NCBI GenBank assembly: GCA_001599915.1
Contig: BCIG01000017.1
Location: 1-64,000 of the forward strand
Direction of reading: 5' to 3'
DNA from: Symbiotaphrina buchneri
Taxonomy: Eukaryota > Ascomycota > Symbiotaphrinales > Symbiotaphrinaceae
DNA length: 64,000 bases
The position numbers and the translations under genes were made by a program. Positions 13,003 through 32,003 of the stretch are shown one piece after another. How positions within the stretch are numbered: the first letter of the stretch is position 1; each line of letters begins with the position of its first letter. The notes under the pieces are model-generated. The model was not told the origin of the DNA. It did not search any database and worked only from the letters and a program-made list of their open reading frames with translations.

Positions 13003-13177
13003 GGAGCCTGACTGTAGACGAGATGGAGACGAGCTTGGCTTATCACAAGCCGAGAGTGGCGTAGCTAGAGTACGTAAAGATAAATACGTGAAGAATCCAG
13101 AGGTCTTCATCCTATCAATTCCCCTAAATTAGGATCAGTTTTCGACGATTCAACACACAAGTTGTTCCTCATTCACC

Positions 13178-16100
13178 ATGAACAACACTAACGGTACTCC
13201 AGTGCCTGGAGTGGGGGGCAATGGCGGTGTCTCGCCGCTTGGTTCTCAATACGGCAGCAATGGTCATGCCAATGGGCATGCTAACGGGTATTCCAATGGC
13301 CCTGAAAATGGTATAGCTCACCGGTCTAAACCCAAGGCCGGCTTTGAACCGATTGCAATTTGCGGCATCGCCATAAGGCTGCCCGGTGGCGTCAAAGATC
13401 CAGCAGGCTTCTGGGACATCCTCTACAACGACAAAGACACACGCGGGCCTATTCCAGCCAACCGGTACAATGCATACGGCTTCAGCGACAAGCTCGGAAA
13501 GAAAGGCGCAATCAAGACACAATACGGCTACTTTCTTGATGATGATATCGCAGCACTGGATCCGTCCTTCTTCACCATGAGCAAGCGGGAGCTGGAGAAG
13601 ACGGATCCCCAGCAGCGCCAGATTCTCGAGGTCACGAGGGAGTGCCTAGATAGTGCTGGTGAGACTGACTATCGTGGGAAGAATATCGGGTGCTATGTTG
13701 GGACCTTCGGTGAGGACTGGCTTTATTCCATGTCGAAGGAGAGTCAACATGAAGGTGGATATAATCTTTCTGGCGATTTGATGATTGCCAACCGAGTCTC
13801 CTTTGAGTATGACTTCAGAGGTCCAAGGTCAGGAAGTTACACGGCAAGGATTATTGTACCACTTTGCTGACCTGATTCTTTAGTATGGTCATAAAGACCG
13901 GCTGTTCCGCATCTTTGGTTGGCCTACACGAAGCATGCCGAGCCCTACAGATCGGAGATTGTTCTGCTGCTATCGTCGCCGGAACCAATCTGATCATGGG
14001 TCCTACCACAACCGCTGCAATGACACAGGAGGGTATTCTCTCGCCCGAGGGGTCATGCAAAACATTCGACGCTACCGCAGACGGGTTCGCCAGAGGTGAA
14101 GCTATCAACGCCGTGTATATCAAGCGCTTGGATGATGCAATAAGAGATGGGAATCCCATCCGCGCTGTGATACGGAATACAGCAACCAACAGCGATGGGA
14201 GGGGCCCGGGCCTAATGGCTCCCAATGGCAAGGCCCATGAAGCCATGATGCATGCTATTTACGAGGACACAGGCTTGAATCCTCGAGACACTGGTTTTGT
14301 AGAGGTGAGTACAGTATTCGAAGATGGCGTGGAGCGGTGAACTGATGTTGTCTCAGTGCCATGGGACGGGAACGTCCACTGTAAGCTTTTCTTTCTACTC
14401 AGCTGGCATGTAGGCTAAACTTAACAGGGTGATCCGATAGAAACAACGGCCGTTGGCAACGTCTTTGGTGAAGCTGGAGTATATATTGGCTCGGTAATTT
14501 AGGCCCTTTTTGCTTGCAGTGCCACACTGATAATGTAACACAGGTGAAACCGAACGTAGGACATGCGGAAGGAGCGTCTGGTATTACGAGCCTGATCAAA
14601 TGTGTGCTGGCGTTGGAGCATCAGACAATCCCTCCTAACATCAAGTTCAACAAGCCTAATCCCAAAAGTACGCGTCCCGTGACATGATTCTCCTGCTCAC
14701 CTTTCTGACTTACTCCAAAGTTGCTTTCGACGAAAAGAAGCTGGTAGTCCCGGTTCGGCCTACAGCGTGGCCCAAAGACCGCGCTCAGCGCATCAGCATA
14801 AATTCTTTTGGCATCGGAGGAAGTAATGCTCATGTACGTACCAGGCTCTGTCTGCTTGAAGCTTGTACTTAATAATATCTGCAGGTCATTCTGGACTCCC
14901 CCATCGAGGCGGGCCTCAAGTCTCCGACCGCCAATGGTACCAATGGCACCACCAGCCACCCACCTCAGTTACTTATCTTCTCCGCCAACTCTCAAGACTC
15001 TTTGCAACGGCAAGTGGATGCGAGCAAGCAGTATCTTGAGCAAAATCCCGAGTGTCTATCCGACATGGCGTACACTCTCGGTCTACGCAGGGAAGCTCTA
15101 CCACATAGGACGTATGCCGTCACAACCGGTGCATCTATCGGTGGGGTGGCTGCAGCTTCAAGGGTCACGATGGGTAGCACTCCGCCCATAGCAATGATCT
15201 TCAGCGGTCAAGGAGCACAATGGGCCGAGATGGGGAAAGATTTAATAGAGACGGATCAACACTTCAAGAAGGATATACTGGCTATAGACGAGATATTAAA
15301 GGGCTTGAGACACCCTCCGAGCTGGACTATTGAAGGTACGATAGGGCTTCAATGGTATGAATAGTTTTATAAGTGACACGTTGCAGGTGAACTGAACAAG
15401 CCTGCCAAGATCAGCCAATTATCACGGGCGGAAATAGCACAACCCCTCTGCACCGCTATACAGATTGCTCTATTTAACGCGGTCTCGAGAAGCGGGGTCA
15501 AGCCACAGGCAGTGATCGGTCATTCCAGCGGTGAGATAGCCGCCGCCTATGCCAGTGGCTCGCTGTCTGTGGCGGAAGCTATGATCGTGGCATATTACCG
15601 CGGCTATGTCACCAAAGAGCAACGTTTAGAAGGAGGCATGGCAGCTATTGGTCTGGACGCTAATACAACAGCCCTATTTTGCCGCACCGGTGTCGTGATT
15701 GCGTGTGAAAATAGTCCCAACAGCACTACTATATCTGGAGACCTAGACGAGTTAGACAAGACGATAGAACGCATCAAAGAGCAACATCCTGACGTGCTGG
15801 CACGCCAGTTGAAGGTTGATATGGCATATCATTCACGTCAGTCTCCTCCGTTATACTGGGGCTATTGCATGCTAATTAATTCACAGATCATATGAAGACT
15901 TTGTCGGCGAAATATCATCAATTAGTGCAGTCTGAACTTGAAGCAAAGGGCATTACCCGCAGCCACCCGCAAATCCCAATATTTTCTAGCGTTATAGATG
16001 AAGTGATCGACAGCTCTTCGCAGCTTGCCCCGGATTACTGGGTATCCAATCTCACTTCGCCCGTCAAATTCCACGGCGCAGTGACAAATCTGCTTCGTCA

Positions 16101-19100
16101 ACAACCAAACAATCTCTTCATCGAGATCGGCCCACACTCTACCTTAGCGGGACCATTGCGTCAGATATGCGCCGAGGTGCGCACCCAGTGCAATTACATA
16201 CCGACCATGGTCCGCTCGGCGCCCTGCGTCGACAGCCTGTTCTCTGCATTCGGGCAGATGTGGCAACAAGGCGTGGCGGTGAAGCTTAATCACCTCTTCC
16301 CAAAGGGCAGGGTGTTGCCTGATCTGCCAACATATCCATGGGACCACTCGGCTTCATTCTGGTACGAGAGCCGAGTCTCGAAGGAATGGCGGTTCCGGCA
16401 GTTCCCACACCACGCTATCCTTGGTCAGCGGGTCCTCGAGAGCACCAGCCTGGATCCAGCCTGGAAGGTGGTTTTGGACCTCGAGGATGAACCGTGGTTG
16501 TACGATCACAAAGTGCGCGACGATGTGGTCTTTCCGCTTGCAGGGTACATTGCCATGGCTGGGGAAGCAATACGCCAGATCACAGGTATCGAGAGTGGGT
16601 ATAGTGTACGCCATGTTGTGGCGCATACTGCGTTGGTGCTCCAAGAATCAAAGTCTTCCGAAGTCGTTACTACGCTTCGACGTCACAAGCTGACGGACTC
16701 TACCGACTCGGATGCATATGACTTCGTCATCTCGTCCTTTGCAGGCAGCACTTGGATTAAGAACTGCGAGGGTATCGTCAAGCCATTGCAGAAAGGCATC
16801 ATCCCAGCGATATCTCCGCCAGACTTTGTGAGAGGCCTACCGCGCAAAGTCCCCACAGAGAGATGGTACGATGTCATGGCCCGCGTAGGTCTCAACTACG
16901 GCCCTGAATTCCAGGGGATGAAACAGATATCCACGTCACCCACAACAAACCGCTCGGTATGCGAGATCAAGGTTCCCGAGAGCCAGCAAGACAGCCCCTT
17001 CGTCTTCCACCCTGCATCCATCGACGCCTGCTTCCAACTCGCAATTGTCGCCATGGCGAAGGGTGCAGGTCGAGACTTCACACAGCTATGCGTGGCAACA
17101 ATGATTGAAGAGCTCGATATTTCACGCAGTGCAATGAGCATGCAAGCCGAGGCCTGGATGACACCTGAAGCCAAAGATGTGGGCATCGAATGTTTCGCTG
17201 ATGGAAAAGTCGCTCTGCGCCTACGAGATATACGTATGAACCCGTTAGAAGATGACAAGAGCTTGACAACGGATGTCCATGCGGCTGCGCATCTGGAATG
17301 GTGTCCGGACTTTGATTTTATGGATATCCCGCCGCTGTTTACCTCGCCTAAGGCTACTCAGGAGACGAAGCTACTCGTGGAAGAATTGACGCTCCTCTGC
17401 ATCATTGACTCCGCTGAACGCCTCAAGGACCTGGAGCCATGTGAACCACATTTCCTGAAACTCCGCGAATGGCTGCACCGGGAAATTGGACGTGCTGAAG
17501 AAGGAACGTACCCTCTAATGCCAAATGCGAAGGACTATCTCAAGTATTCGCCCCAGGAAAGGAAAGAGATGATGCAGAGCACATATGAAAAGCTCGCCGA
17601 AACACCGACCACCGGTCTCGTGGCCATGGGTATATTACGAATCTGCGAGAACGCAGAAGCCTTGTTCACCGGCAAAGCAGACACGCTCGACCTGCTTATG
17701 ACCGACAATGTCCTGATGGAAATCTACAACTCCGTCAGCTTCGGGCACAGCGACTACGTGCGGATGATGTCCAACACGAAACCAAATCTGCGGATCCTGG
17801 AGGTCGGCGCAGGAACCGGTGGCACCACCGAGCTGATCCTCCGCGACCTTGTTAGCTCCGGAGGTAATCCAGCATACTCGCTGTATACCTTCACCGACAT
17901 CTCCGCCGGCTTCTTCCCGCAGGCAAAGGAACGATTCGCATACGCGCCGAATATGGAGTACAAGGTATTCGACATCTCGCAAGACTTTACCGAGCAGGGT
18001 TTCGAAGCGGGATCTTATGATCTAATTCTCGCACCGAACGTCATCCACGCCACTCCCAGTCTGCAGGAGACCCTCCGCAACCTTCGACCCTTGCTGCGAC
18101 CCAACGGTCATCTGGTGCTCTCTGAAGTCTCAACCGAGTTCAGAGCACCCGGTTATGTTTTTGGGCACTTCTCCGGCTGGTGGCTGGGCGAAGCAGATGA
18201 CCGCAAATACGAGCCATATGTGAGTGTCGACCGATGGGACCGGGAGTTGAAGCAGGCAGGGTATACCGGAGCCGATATATCAGTGTACGACGCGCCTCCG
18301 CCGTACGCATATTGCGCGGCGATTGTCGCTCGCTCCGTACCAAAAGAGCCTCCAGCGAACCACAAATCCATTACGGTCCTCTGTGACAAGCCCGAGCACG
18401 GCATTACAGCCCGACTAATCCAGGAGCTCGAAAAGGAAGGTTTCAGTGTGCAGGCAGTGAAATTCGGCGACCCGCTTCCCGTGCGCAAAGACGTCATCGC
18501 CACGCTGGACTTGGAGGGCTACTTCTTCGAGAATATCACCGAGGACCGCTTCAACGCATTCCAGGATCTGCTGCGCGACCATGAGAAGCAGAACGTTCTC
18601 TGGCTCATGCCACCGGTGCAGATCCGCTGTACCGATGCCCGCCCCGCACAAACCCTGGGCGCCATCCGCATCGTGCGCGCCGAGCTCGCCATACCCATCT
18701 CGACGCTCGAGATCTCTCCTGAAGAACCCGAGTTTGCAGAGTTGATCATGAAGGTCTTTGAGAAAGTGCGCACCAGGGAAGATGTGGAGAACTTGTTGCC
18801 CGATAGAGAATTTGCAGTCGACGAAGGTGTCATTAAGCTTGGCCGATATCAGCCATATTCACTGACGGAAGCGGTGCGTGAGAAGAGTAAGAGCGAAGCT
18901 GGACATGTCAAGACGCTGGAGATCATGAAGCCGGGGTTGCTGGAATCCCTGAGCTGGGTGGACGGGACTCTTCCCGCTGACCTGCCGGATGGGTATGTCG
19001 AGGTGGAAACGAGAGCTGTGGGGATGAACTTCCGAGTAAGCCTCCAGCCCCATTTATTGGACTGCACGCTGACGAAATAGGACATCGTCGTCTCCATGGG

Positions 19101-21372
19101 TGTCTTAACATTCGGATCAAAGCGGCCACCTCTTGGAGTTGAACTATCCGGTGTTGTCAAACGGGTGGGTTGGCATGTTGACAACGTTGTAGCAGGGGAT
19201 CGAGTCGTAGCCGTGGCCTACAATGGCTGCTTCACAACGAATGCTATTATGCTTGCGCCGCTGGTGGTCAAGATCCCCGACGATCTTAGCTTCGAGGAAG
19301 CCGCTACCATGCCTGGCTGCTTTGCGACCTCCGTCGAGGCGCTGTTCGATGTCGGTGGGCTTGAAAGGGGACAGGTGCGTGGAGTATTGATGCGGAAAAA
19401 TTTATCTTATTTGGGATGAATTTTGACTAACATTAATTATAGAGTGTCTTGATCCACTCAGCCGGCGGTGGTGTTGGGCACGCCGCTATCCAACTCTGCA
19501 GAATGGCCGGCGCCAAGGTACTACGAGCTCAACACCTGAACCCCTTTCCCACGCCCTCTAACCAGCTCGCCAGATCTACGCAACCGTCGGCAACGAAGAA
19601 AAAGCACAATACCTGGTCACGAAACTCGGCATCCCACGGACGCACATTTTCAATTCGCGCGACGACTCTTTCCTGCGCGGCCTCATGCAAGCCACCGACG
19701 GGCGGGGCGTCGATCTCGTGCTCAACTCGCTATGCGGGGAACTGCTGCATGCGTCCTGGAAGTGCGTTGCGCCGTTTGGGAAATTGGTCGAGCTGGGTAA
19801 GAGAGACCTTGCCGGGTTTGGGAAGTTGGATCTGGCGACGTTCCATCGGTCGTATTGCTGTGTGGACATCGCGCATTCGATGCAGGAGAGGCCCGTGAAG
19901 GTTGGACGGTCAGTTGTGCAGCTATCCCTTTTCAAGAGGTCCCAATGGCTGATAATCTGTTAGGTTGCTCCAGCGATGCATCGACCTGTACAAAGACGGG
20001 CATATCCAGCCTATCCGTCCAATGGCCGTCTTCGACGCCGCGGATATCGAGCAGAGTTTCCGGTACTTGCAGAAAGGCGACCACATCGGCAAAGCCGCCG
20101 TCAGGATCCCCGAGGACGCTTCTAGCATCCCCAGTATACCGCGCGGTGAGGGAATTCACTTAGACCCTGAGGCTTCGTATTTGCTTACGGGTGGGTTGGG
20201 CGGGTTGGGCAAGGAGCTGGCGACGTGGATGGTCGAGCATGGGGCGAGGGATATCATATTCCTGTCCCGAAGCGCGGGACTGAATGAGCAGGATAAGGTC
20301 TTCTTTAAGGAGTTGGAGGGCATGGGATGTGCGGCGCACCCCGTGCCCGGGAAAGAACAGGATATGGATGCCGTTCAACGTGCGATTGATGCGGCGACGA
20401 AACCAATCAAGGGTATCGTTCACCTGGCTATGGTCCTCAGGGTAAGACATCATACTACTCACTGTATTCCCCTGAACAGTCACTAACTATATCCAGGACA
20501 ACCCCATCCTGGACATGAGCTACAGCGAATGGACCGCAGCCATCGAGCCCAAAGTCACGGGCGCCTGGAACCTTCACAACGCGCTATCCTCCCACACGCT
20601 AGACTTCTTCATCATGACGAGCTCACTCGTAACCATTGTCGACGAGCCCGGGCAGGCCAACTACTGCGCCGCAAACACCTTCTTAGAGTCCTTCTGCCAA
20701 TACCGGCACAACCTAGGCCTTCCGGCATCGGTGCTCAGCATCTGCCCTGTCGACGGCGTGGGCTTCGTCGCCGACAACCCCACCGTGCGCAAGAAGCTCA
20801 AGTCCCAGGGCCTGTACTTCTTATCTGAGGGTGCCCTGCTGGACTTTGTCGAACTGGCTATCCTGGCCTCGCACCCGCCACAGCAGATATCATCTTCCGC
20901 CGGCTGGAAGAGCTCTGGCCACTTAATCATGGGCCTGCGCTCGGAGGTGCACCTCGACGACCCCAAGTGCCTGACCAGCTGGCGGCGCGACCGGCGGATG
21001 GGAATGTACCACAACGTCGCGGACATCACGGCCGGGGACTCTTCTGCAAACTCCAACGCCCTCAAGGTATTCCTCGCGCAAGCCGCCGACGACCCGGAGC
21101 TGCTAGCGGACAAGGCCAGTGCGGACTACCTGGCGCAGGAGATCGGGGTCAAGATTTTTAATTTCTTGCTCAAGCCTGAAGAGGATGTCAATATTGGCCT
21201 GAGTTTGTCGCAGATTGGTCTGGACTCGTTGATGGCGATTGAGTTGAGACGCTGGTGGAAGCAGGCGTTTGGGTTGGATATTAGTGTGCTAGAGATTATG
21301 GCCTCTGGCACACTGGAGGAACTGGGAAGGGTGGCGGCGGAGGGGCTGAGGAAGAGGTTGATGGAGGAGTAG
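13178..21372 (+). CDS. Highly reducing polyketide synthase (KS-AT-DH-MT-ER-KR-ACP)
   Basis: Fourteen exons (13178-13827, 13884-14304, 14357-14380, 14428-14493, 14544-14667, 14721-14833, 14885-15335, 15387-15836, 15887-19035, 19081-19374, 19443-19517, 19574-19908, 19964-20441, 20497-21372) join in one frame to 2501 aa. KS starts near residue 55: Cys224 in GCSASLVG, His359 in CHGTGT, His394 in NVGHAEG. AT has the GHSSGE serine near 663. DH has His974 in [10 protein letters not shown] and Asp1146 in [10 protein letters not shown]. The methyltransferase has LEVGAGTGG near 1404. ER has [13 protein letters not shown] near 1919. KR has TGGLGGLG near 2126 and Tyr2266. The ACP serine is near 2454 (GLDSL). 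All domains look active; there is no thioesterase, so release needs another factor. The N-terminus has an Asn-Gly-rich stretch. The product is expected to be a reduced, methylated polyketide. Confidence 0.96.
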
Positions 21373-28767: not shown

Positions 28768-31263
28768 CTAATGTGCTTCCGCATTCTCCACATGTTTGAC
28801 ACCGCCATCCTTTCCTTCCTCATGATGTCCGGGCACAATTTCCTTTTCCATATGCACCGCAACATGGTTCGTCAAGTACTTGCTCGGATCCAAAATGAAA
28901 AGCGCCGCGATGATTGCAAGCACGCCGAACGGAATACTACTCCAAAAGACGCGCTTGAAGCCATACGCATACGCATTCTTAAACGCCTGCGCGACCGCCT
29001 TCTCAACACTAGGAGTGACGCCCGGGACATCAGCGTACGCATCAGGGACGCCTATAGCAGCATTGGAGACGGCCGGGATGAGCAGCGACAAGTCATCGGC
29101 GCTGTACCCGTTGGCGAGGGCAGCAGCAGAGATCTGTTTCGTCAGCTGCGCATTGACGGTGCCGGTCAAGACGGCATTGAAGATAGCGTTCCCGACACTA
29201 CCGCCTGCAGCTCTGAAAGTGCCGATGAGGCCCGATGCCACGCCCAGCTGGCTCTGCGGGACGTGTAGCCCGGCGATGATATAGCACAGAAGAGTAATCA
29301 GAGCGAAGGGACCTTGGCCGAAGACCTGGAAGACCATCCAGGCCGCTTTGTTCTGCGGGATGATGACCGAGTACAGCGCGACGAAGAGCGTCTGCAGGAC
29401 CAGCGCAATGACGATCTGCGCGCGGAGGTGCTTGAGATTATGTACGAGCGATGGCAGGATCGCGCCGCTGACGAGTTGGGCCGCGCCGTTGGGGAGCGCC
29501 ACGAGACCGATTTGGATGGGGTCGCTGGTGAACATATACAGCGTGCCTTGCGGGAGGAAGGCCGACATGGAGTAGTAGACCATGCCGGCGACGAACACGA
29601 CAACGAGCAGCACGGTGAATTCGCGTACTCGGCGGAAGAGTGAGAAGGGGAAGAACGGCTGTTTGGCGACGTAGAAGTCGTAGATGAAGGCGGCGACGAA
29701 GAGCGGGAAGCCGATGCAGATCGGTGCGATGACGGATGCGCTTTTCCAGGCATGGCCCGCTGAACCACTCCATGTTAGGCCAATGAGGAAAACCGTAAGA
29801 CCGCCCCTGTATAGTATTATCCCAATGTAGTCGATCTCTTTGACCTCCTGCCATCGAGTCTTGTCGTAGTCGTGTCGTGGACGGGTCGGTGGGTAGTAGA
29901 AGACAAATGTGCCGATGAGGCAGAGACCGCTATAGATCAGGGCGATCCAGTAGCACCACCTCCAGCTAGCATGGGACTCTAACAGGTTGCCAATCAAGGC
30001 GGCAAGACCGCTGAAAGGCAGCACCATGCAGAGCTCCGTGAAGCCGAGCCCGATCCCACTATGTTGGTCAGCTTGCATCCGCTTTCAAGAGGCACCAGCC
30101 AGCAAGACATACCGGTACTTGTTCGGCAGAAGCTCTGGAATACCGGCGTAGCCTACAAACACTAGCCCGCATCCAAAGCCGATCAAGACAGAGCCTGCAA
30201 CGACCGTTGTTGTAGCATGTACAGTTGCAGTAACGATCTGTGTAAGAATCAGTGAGCTTGGGGGACTTGTATGATCATCAGATAGGAGACCTACAACTCT
30301 GACCATGTTTGATAGATTTCCTATAATAATAAACCATCTATAGCCAAAGATATCGTTCAAGTTTCCTGTAATAGAGAAAGAAACAGAGGATACAATCAAC
30401 TATCTTTCTGTTATCTATATAACATTCATTATATCTTTAAAAGCTTCTCTGATTTATATCTTGATAAATGTAACAATGATAAACCTGATCATAACAGATC
30501 TAACAAAGGATAACCCAAGGAACTGATGATAAATCAGGTCAGAGTTAGATCAGCTAACAATAGATATATCTTCTTATGATAACAACAAAGAACATCAACC
30601 AGGTCAGCTTCTCTGTATGCTCTGGGTTATCCTTTAGCATCACACGATATGGATCATCATAGTCAAACAGACCCCTGTCCTGTCCTGTCATCTAGCCTAC
30701 ATCTAAAACCAATCAAGACAAAGTCTGTAACAACTGTTGTTATAGTATGTACAGTTGTAGTAATAATCTATATAAGAACCAGTAAGCTTAGAGAACTTGT
30801 ATGATCACCAGATAAGAGACCTACAGCTCTGATTATGTTTAATAGATTTCCTATAATAATAAACTATTTACAGCTAAAGATATCATTCAGGTTTCCTATA
30901 ATAGAGAAAGAAACAAAGGATACAATTAACTACCTTCCTATTATCTATATAACATTTGCTATATCTTTAAAAGCTTCTTTGATTTATGTTTTAATAGATA
31001 TAATGATGATAAACCTGATCGCAACAGACCTGACAAAGGATAACCTAAGGAACTGGTAACAAATCAGGTCAGAGTTGGATCAGCTAACAGTGGATGCATC
31101 TTCTTACGATAACAGCAAAGAACGTCGACCAGGTCAGCTTCTCTACATGCTCTGGGTTATCCTCCAGCGCCGCACGATGCGGATCGTTGTAGTCAAGCGG
31201 ACCCCTGTCCTGTCCTGCTGTCTCAGCAAAATCGATCTTGTTCTTCTCTTCAGCGTGCGCCAT
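28768..31263 (-). pseudogene. TRI12-like MFS exporter, 5' part duplicated and RIP-mutated
   Basis: The 3' two-thirds is intact: exons complement of 28768-30058 and 30113-30237, joined to an exon ending at 30295, encode typical TRI12/DHA-type membrane helices (GFGCGLVFVGYAGIPELLPNKYR, SHASWRWCYWIALIYSG, GTFRAAGGSVGNAIFNAV). The original start is the ATG at 31263: MAHAEEKNKIDFAET... and NPEHVEKLTWSTFFAVI, then an intron. Between, a 530-bp unit is present twice, and in both copies the first membrane helices and the WxxGGW region contain stop codons (Trp or Gln codons turned to stops) from C-to-T/G-to-A changes. As it stands no full-length product of about 590 aa can be made; a short N-truncated protein is possible. 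By family and position it was the cluster's efflux pump. Confidence 0.85.
30162..31221. repeat. 530-bp tandem duplication with RIP signature
   Basis: Copy A is about 30162-30691 and copy B about 30692-31221, with a constant 530-bp offset and no indels seen. Every difference I compared by eye is a transition (C/T or G/A); I found no transversion. The centre (about 30240-31160) is strongly AT-rich, while the outer ends, which hold an intact exon at the left and the start codon at the right, stay near original. This is what RIP of a linked duplication leaves behind. Confidence 0.9.
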
Positions 31264-32003
31264 CTTGCATGAACCAAACGGAATTCGTAGGTTTGCGGAT
31301 ATGTGCGATGGTTTACAGGACCCCAGGGGGCCCCGCAGGCTTTATCTTATCGCTCATCCCCGATGCTGCAGATCATTAATTTGCAAGCAGCTTCCCCGTT
31401 TCGGACGCTGTGCAGCATACTTGTTGGATGCGCTAGGTGGGCCCCACATCTTCCTCCACCCCAATGACTCCGCATCGAGGGGTTTAGTCGCTACTAGAGT
31501 CGCTTAGGCTACTCCGTACGTGGAGTTTGAGATACTCAACCGCAAATGCCGGATCAAGCGGCATGCGTAGCCAATCACAGATTGCGGATATGTTGGGAGC
31601 GTTGTGGACAAGAGATGGACGCGAAGCCACGTTGTGGAGCTATTCCGATCGCAGAATATCCGGTTTATCCTTGGCTGGAAATAAGGAAACATTGGTTATC
31701 ATTCTTGAATGAAGCTAGCATTTATAAATTCTCTCATAGAGTACGCAACTCCAGGCTCAGCAGACTGAGCTACAAGCTGAATGTCATCAAGCCTTACAGG
31801 CTACAGAATGAAAACCCCACATGCTTTCTATTCATCCTCTCTGACTTGACAAAGCAGCCCAATCGACTGTGGTAGCCTTATTGTTTGACTATGATAATGT
31901 GCTCTACGTTCGAACCTGTCGATGTTTACGCATCTAGCTCTCATACAATCACTTCACTATCGAGCCAAAGCAGTTCAATTTGTATCATGTACAGTACCAT
32001 ATC
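31264..32003. other. Intergenic, old MFS promoter
   Basis: Upstream of the MFS start. On the minus strand near 31750-31790 a TGTAGCTCAGT word resembles a tRNA D arm, but no T arm follows. No gene was found. Confidence 0.45.

Follow-up and report, generated by a model that had tools for sequence, protein, structure and literature searches.

A transition-only tandem duplication in a transporter gene of Symbiotaphrina buchneri, probably a scar of RIP with a CpG preference at least as strong as that for CpA

A 530-bp tandem duplication within the 5' coding part of a gene for an MFS transporter of Symbiotaphrina buchneri has diverged by transitions alone, and the best explanation, which we consider very probably correct, is RIP of this local tandem with a preference for CpG at least equal to that for CpA. 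The duplication lies in a window of 64,000 nucleotides, the whole stretch of DNA that was analysed (contig BCIG01000017.1, positions 1 to 64,000, assembly GCA_001599915.1). RIP is the best reading because the changes are transitions only, are confined to the duplicated unit and affect both copies, because the unit exceeds 400 bp and its copies are still 84% identical, and because the genome holds a RID-type gene and retroelements with a matching mutational spectrum. A preliminary description, made from the letters alone, had proposed that the organism has or had RIP and that RIP killed a gene through a small duplication, and in substance this proposal is supported.

The two copies abut, with copy 1, the downstream one in the direction of the gene, at 30162-30691 and copy 2 at 30692-31221. 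An ungapped alignment at offset 530 gave 85 transitions, no transversions and no indels, with 445 of 530 columns identical (84.0%). The tandem duplication and its transition-only divergence are therefore real, and the original observation of two 530-bp copies in exact register that differ only by C/T or G/A is confirmed. No other offset between 100 and 1499 in the region matched in this way (best 200-bp match 175, next 86). The breakpoints have about 2 bp (CT) in common, and the coordinates are good to within about 2 bp. Among the best candidates scored in a DNA search of the organism's own genome (23.4 Mb, 82 contigs) no third copy of the unit was found, so there is no sign of an outside trigger, a result that we counted in favour of RIP on a local tandem. 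Telomere repeats had no match in the 64-kb window. The duplication falls within the size and identity limits described for RIP (530 bp and 84.0%, against more than about 400 bp and more than about 80%): repeats are reported to need more than about 400 bp in the parts of PMC2621366 and PMC4522978 that deal with length, and RIP to fade near 80% identity in the corresponding part of PMC8016269. Ordinary pseudogene decay of an old tandem duplication, to which both copies would be exposed as broken sequences free to drift, has next to no probability; the chance of seeing no transversion among 85 changes is 1e-15 at a Ts:Tv of 2:1, 2e-7 at 5:1 and 0.016 at 20:1, the changes are confined to the unit, and conserved codons have changed towards A/T, as described below.

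The distribution of the changes within the copies bears on what came first, the tandem or the mutations. Of the 85 differing sites, 41 have the T/A state in copy 1 and 44 have it in copy 2, and the median unit position of the changes is 400 in copy 1 and 132 in copy 2 (Mann-Whitney p = 8e-9). At these sites the mutations of each copy lie mainly in the inner part and spare the outer edge, the left edge of copy 1 and the right edge of copy 2 being near-original and T/A rising from each towards the junction. This gradient indicates that the tandem existed before these mutations, since mutation before the duplication, or on two separate alleles, could not distinguish an outer edge, and the process must have acted on the tandem. 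The same observations bear on an assembly artefact in which two differently mutated alleles or haplotypes were joined as a false tandem. The genome is a draft of 82 contigs, in which the tandem is seen as assembled sequence. However, the gradients run in opposite directions from the two outer edges of the array, which, like the damage centred on each unit, fits a real tandem and not two joined alleles, and the flanks are unique and normal, so that we regard such an artefact as very unlikely.

Base composition adds a second feature to this pattern. Between 30262 and 31161 the GC content is 0.26-0.46, as against 0.52-0.59 in the flanks (100-bp steps), and the only 300-bp windows below 0.38 GC in the 64 kb are those starting at 30201-30801 (step 100). 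The changes are restricted to the duplicated stretch, both copies are mutated, and the GC content of the flanks is normal. We had expected the GC content to dip once, at the junction, but the data show one trough per copy: in 53-bp bins the GC content is lowest midway through each copy, at 0.23 and 0.21, and recovers partially at the junction. Of the earlier statement that the outer edges are near-original and the centre AT-rich, the first part is borne out by the gradient and the second has to be amended, the AT-richest parts being the middles of the two copies. One trough per copy is in keeping with the pattern reported for Neurospora RIP, whose mutations, in the portion of PMC4858203 concerned, sit around the centre of each repeat.

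The duplication falls on the 5' coding part of a minus-strand gene for an MFS transporter of the TRI12 type. Its open remainder (28768-30084, 438 codons between stops) matches the profiles TRI12 (PF06609, E 4.6e-46) and MFS_1 (PF07690), on which the assignment to this type rests. The tblastn alignments of relatives, all on the minus strand, cover 31108-31212, portions of 30876-31127, and a stretch that begins at 30519-30549 and runs down to about 28800. Coding exon 1 of the 5' part (31108-31263, minus strand, in the frame 31084-31341) takes in the spared outer edge of copy 2; its stretch 31108-31212 is free of stops and matches the relatives, and the start codon is probably the ATG at 31261-31263. 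The nine relatives used here were picked from a protein search, among 120 listed of 224 homologues. The best-scoring homologue is 63% identical, and of the 120 listed (224 in all) the one with the highest identity reaches 66% across 75% of the query, so that among the matches listed there is no close unduplicated ortholog for comparison.

Three in-frame stops on the minus strand interrupt copy 1 (30400-30402, 30415-30417 and 30454-30456), at codons aligned to residues in 9/9 relatives. The same codons, shifted by 530, are stops in copy 2 (30930-30932, 30945-30947 and 30984-30986), where 9, 8 and 3 of 9 relatives align. A fourth in-frame stop, at 30085-30087, is probably intronic and not damage: it falls within a probable 54-bp intron (30059-30112, minus strand) that adjoins the duplication outside the unit, with splice sites read by eye, and lies opposite a gap in 9/9 relatives. 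Judged from the sequence, the gene is broken in its 5' part, and transporter function has presumably been lost. The break is probably recent because the downstream frame has not decayed. These findings uphold the description of stops on the coding strand in a duplication over the 5' exons of an exporter gene. The same description spoke of the death of a cluster gene; the breakage stands, with stops in both copies, while membership in a cluster is only suggested by the neighbours. Those are a P450 gene (26458-27396), another P450 gene and dioxygenase genes, with a polyketide synthase nearby (15880-19080) that has dehydratase and methyltransferase domains, and they make a biosynthetic setting for the transporter plausible. 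In the region 13133-21372 and its surroundings, the polyketide synthase stands amid P450, GMC oxidoreductase and 2OG-Fe(II) oxygenase genes.

The relatives also allowed us to examine the direction of change, taking as conserved those codons whose residue is common to at least 7 of the 9 relatives. Changes explained by C>T or G>A alone affected 14 of 44 conserved codons in copy 1, compared with 6 of 230 elsewhere in the gene (p = 2e-8), which indicates that the direction of change was towards A/T. Conserved codons changed towards G/C numbered 1/44 in copy 1 and 5/230 in the rest of the gene; the resulting contrast between the two directions (14:1 in the scar, 6:5 elsewhere) is borderline when taken alone (p = 0.054) and to that extent counts against RIP. 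Within the unit's core, changes towards A/T affected both copies at 13 conserved codons, copy 1 alone at 1, copy 2 alone at 5 and neither copy at 19; only 3 of these last 19 still have a site in a preferred context at which a change would alter the residue. At the right edge, in exon 1, copy 1 alone was changed at 8 codons, both copies at 2, copy 2 alone at 1 and neither at 12, and in the left 129 bp 2 of 6 conserved codons had a change confined to copy 2, with no codon changed in both. Thus the copies share the damage of the core, and that of the edges is private.

That 13 of the 19 altered core codons were altered in both copies also counts against RIP, as so many double hits require either saturation of the preferred sites or an extra homogenising step. 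When only codons with a preferred site are considered (both copies changed at 13, copy 1 alone at 1, copy 2 alone at 5, neither at 3), the association between the copies is not significant (one-sided Fisher test by hand, 0.12), and near-saturation of the preferred sites suffices. About 10 shared hits are predicted from the nucleotide counts in separate bins if the hits were independent. Homogenisation or exchange between the copies between rounds, or an earlier round, may lie behind the shared damage.

The dinucleotide context of the changes departs from a simple CpA rule. Among sites at which one or both copies have C or G, 33 of 74 CpA, 25 of 40 CpG, 13 of 48 CpC and 14 of 77 CpT sites were changed. 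With the outer copy as the reference over the outer 180 bp at each end, the corresponding figures were 22/54 for CpA, 15/28 for CpG, 7/35 for CpC and 8/53 for CpT, and at these edges CpR exceeded CpY (p = 1e-4) and CpA exceeded CpY (p = 0.003), with CpG and CpA not distinguishable (p = 0.35). The contrast of CpA plus CpG with CpC plus CpT holds over edge widths of 100-265 bp (p 4e-4 to 2e-6). The context order in the scar is CpG at least equal to CpA, and CpA above CpC and CpT. In the outer 130 bp at each end, changes in the inner and outer copy stand at 17:2 for CpG and 15:1 for CpA, and this common footprint argues for a single process in the scar. Runs tests for same-strand clusters of changes gave no sign of any in the scar (p values of 0.71 and 0.33).

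CpA dominance was not found in the scar (CpA against the rest, p = 0.058; CpG 25/40 against CpA 33/74), which counts against RIP. Taken literally, the check for a CpA-to-TpA bias proposed in the preliminary description therefore failed, CpG being at least as strong. The absence of a CpA bias, named there as grounds for rejecting RIP, was thus partly observed, yet the genome's own repeats have mutated likewise and the RIP reading stands. According to the relevant part of PMC2621366 the CpA-to-TpA hallmark is species-dependent, so that failing it bars the Neurospora type of RIP and not RIP itself. The RIP indices of the scar (TpA/ApT 0.95, (CpA+TpG)/(ApC+GpT) 1.18, composite -0.24) are not RIP-positive by the thresholds of PMC7882544 (product > 1.15, substrate <= 0.75, composite > 0), and this too counts against RIP. 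In the comparison of indices with the flanks, which the preliminary description proposed as a check, the composite is higher than in the rest of the window (-0.63), though not to the level of a positive call. None of the 127 1-kb windows in the 64 kb is index-positive.

The genome's own retroelements were used as a yardstick for this spectrum. We fetched 20 stretches around reverse transcriptase, integrase and transposase matches and compared 10 pairs, taken from 40 listed of 607 BLAST pairs. Stops interrupt 9 of 13 reverse transcriptase matches, and 13 of the 20 stretches have a GC content of at most 0.37, with CpG observed/expected as low as 0.08. From L037 to the lightly mutated L038 there are 377 transitions and 9 transversions over 7628 bp, and the changes fall on 230 of 1020 CpG, 86 of 957 CpA, 30 of 986 CpT and 23 of 1128 CpC sites (CpG against CpA, p = 8e-17). 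From L045 to L044 the changes fall on 150/298 CpG, 195/596 CpA, 106/529 CpT and 79/464 CpC sites, and no context differs from the scar (p 0.23-0.84). The scar has higher rates than L038 in all four contexts and a higher CpA rate than the change from L041 to L043 (p = 0.01). Same-strand clustering is weak in L038 against L037 (runs test, p = 0.0095) and not seen in L044 against L045 (p = 0.91). In the old saturated pairs L029/L031 and L031/L033 only 8-15 CpG sites remain, and CpA is above CpT and CpC. Three pairs count against RIP with Ts:Tv near 2:1 (L041/L045 145:74, L040/L041 125:52 and L040/L045 157:82), which suggests that these copies have gone uncaught since they parted and that the mutator is leaky, episodic or relaxed. 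L040, L041 and L045 (contigs C25, C19 and C9) have a GC content of about 0.39 and show ordinary substitution, unlike the other pairs compared.

Candidate enzymes were sought with the profile PF00145, which has four matches in three genes of the genome. One of these (L003, contig C6) carries PCQ and ENV motifs, matches Sclerotinia SS1G_05055 at only 26% and is presumably DIM-2-like. A predicted RID/Masc1-type methyltransferase is present on contig C24 (L004): it carries PCQ together with the EQT triad, and over 175 aa it shares 51% identity with SS1G_05055. The EQT triad marks the Masc1/RID group in the part of PMC6709928 that treats these motifs, and SS1G_05055 is listed as a putative RID homologue in PMC2432034. 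The third DNA methyltransferase-like gene (L005, C27:394989-398387) combines the ENV triad with an unusual SCV in place of PCQ. Contig C5 has a partial TP6A_N (Spo11-type) match; a search for the MAT alpha box gave no match, and its control also matched nowhere.

A slower route to the same transitions was also weighed. MIP, in which duplicated DNA is methylated without obligatory mutation, was set aside, the duplication being mutated. In a MIP-like alternative, CpG-first cytosine methylation of the duplicate would be followed by slow decay of 5-methylcytosine to T over many generations, with no dedicated mutational step. CpG is indeed the most mutable context in the scar and the retroelements, a second, ENV-type methyltransferase gene is available, and fungal CpG signatures have been ascribed to methylation plus deamination in the section of PMC4352252 that discusses them. 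However, 85 transitions unaccompanied by any transversion or indel across 530 aligned neutral columns imply a rate far above background, the CpA changes have the footprint of the CpG changes (15:1 and 17:2), and the downstream frame has not decayed, which together leave slow deamination, the main alternative to fast premeiotic mutation by RIP, improbable.

We hypothesize, in support of RIP of the local tandem, that a 530-bp tandem arose in the 5' coding part of the transporter gene through breakpoint microhomology of about 2 bp, and that a RIP machinery, most likely built on the RID/Masc1-type methyltransferase, recognised the abutting copies as homologous. C would then have turned to T on both strands of both copies, most densely mid-copy and towards the junction and sparsely at the two outer edges, by a process for which CpG would be at least as good a target as CpA, with CpC and CpT mutated less than either. 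The outcome would be the copies seen here, 84% identical, in a gene with stops in both. We infer the premeiotic (sexual-cycle) timing, the part of RID as the agent and the number of rounds. A wider proposal, that a RID-based RIP preferring CpG over CpA senses linked homology of about half a kilobase in a single-copy gene and that the scar is a natural record of homology pairing, perhaps with exchange between the copies between rounds, in abutting repeats outside Neurospora, is in our view slightly favoured.

Both features, a small natural tandem with RIP and a preference for CpG at least equal to that for CpA, have precedents. Grayburn and Selker reportedly described in 1989 a natural Neurospora tandem duplication degraded by RIP, zeta-eta, of about 0.8 kb, in which RIP is said to be of the CpA type and to lie outside any protein-coding gene. 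Both that case and ours are natural RIP-degraded tandems; here, in contrast, a 530-bp unit lies inside a transporter gene and CpG is at least level with CpA. The MATE transposons of Aspergillus nidulans show CpG>TpG and then CpA>TpA in descending magnitude, according to the pertinent part of PMC2621366, an order that recurs from L037 to L038 and, by point estimate, in the scar; MATE are dispersed transposons, whereas ours is a local gene duplication. In Uncinocarpus reesii, a CG-type RIP with CG over CA was predicted alongside RID/Masc1 and DIM-2 homologues (PMC4165359). It shares with the present genome a RID/Masc1 homologue and the CG preference, and as presented in the portion of that report concerned it is a genome-wide prediction without a single dated scar.

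A host gene was killed by RIP after duplication in the case of Zymoseptoria tritici dim2, as related in part of PMC8016269; the trigger there was amplified subtelomeric copies, with transversions, whereas here it is a local partial tandem with none. Neurospora constructs of the repeat-linker-repeat type undergo RIP of closely spaced repeats of hundreds of bp (PMC4858203, in part), with 802-bp repeats in the corresponding part of PMC11969663. Those constructs are engineered and have a linker, while the present tandem is natural and abutting; mutations lie mid-repeat in both. A 2025 survey concluded, in the part bearing on sequence context, that RIP-like defences share a CpA preference (PMC12543289), to which the present genome would be an exception.

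The scar offers a clean natural case in which a small local duplication led to a dead gene through apparent RIP, with the organism's own retroelements as an internal yardstick for the spectrum. Coding duplicates in Neurospora crosses are short and seldom mutated, as the relevant part of PMC7296669 has it, which makes a well-preserved natural case inside a gene useful. Scans by CpA-to-TpA indices overlook it, together with 123 of the 168 AT-rich 1-kb windows (GC < 0.35) of the fetched retroelement loci; the index-positive windows there, 45 of 371, all fall among those 168. An alignment of the copies reveals the scar immediately. An earlier warning that simple RIP indices are unreliable appears in a part of PMC2621366.

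Among the retroelement loci, L037 (C1:315001-325000) has a GC content of about 0.54, and its reverse transcriptase match is spanned by an open frame of 1360 codons. It is 95% identical to L038, and nearly all changes are in L038, so L037 has escaped mutation so far. Long AT-rich mid-contig stretches were seen at L029, L030, L031, L033 and L035 (contigs C12, C16, C27, C23 and C1), with a GC content of 0.22-0.28, CpG observed/expected of 0.08-0.23 and packed degenerate retroelements at pairwise identities of about 80-82%; these stretches could be centromeric. The AT-rich locus L039 (C23:240001-250000) contains close direct repeats at offsets 895, 1629, 3266 and 3812 (200-bp windows at least 70% identical).
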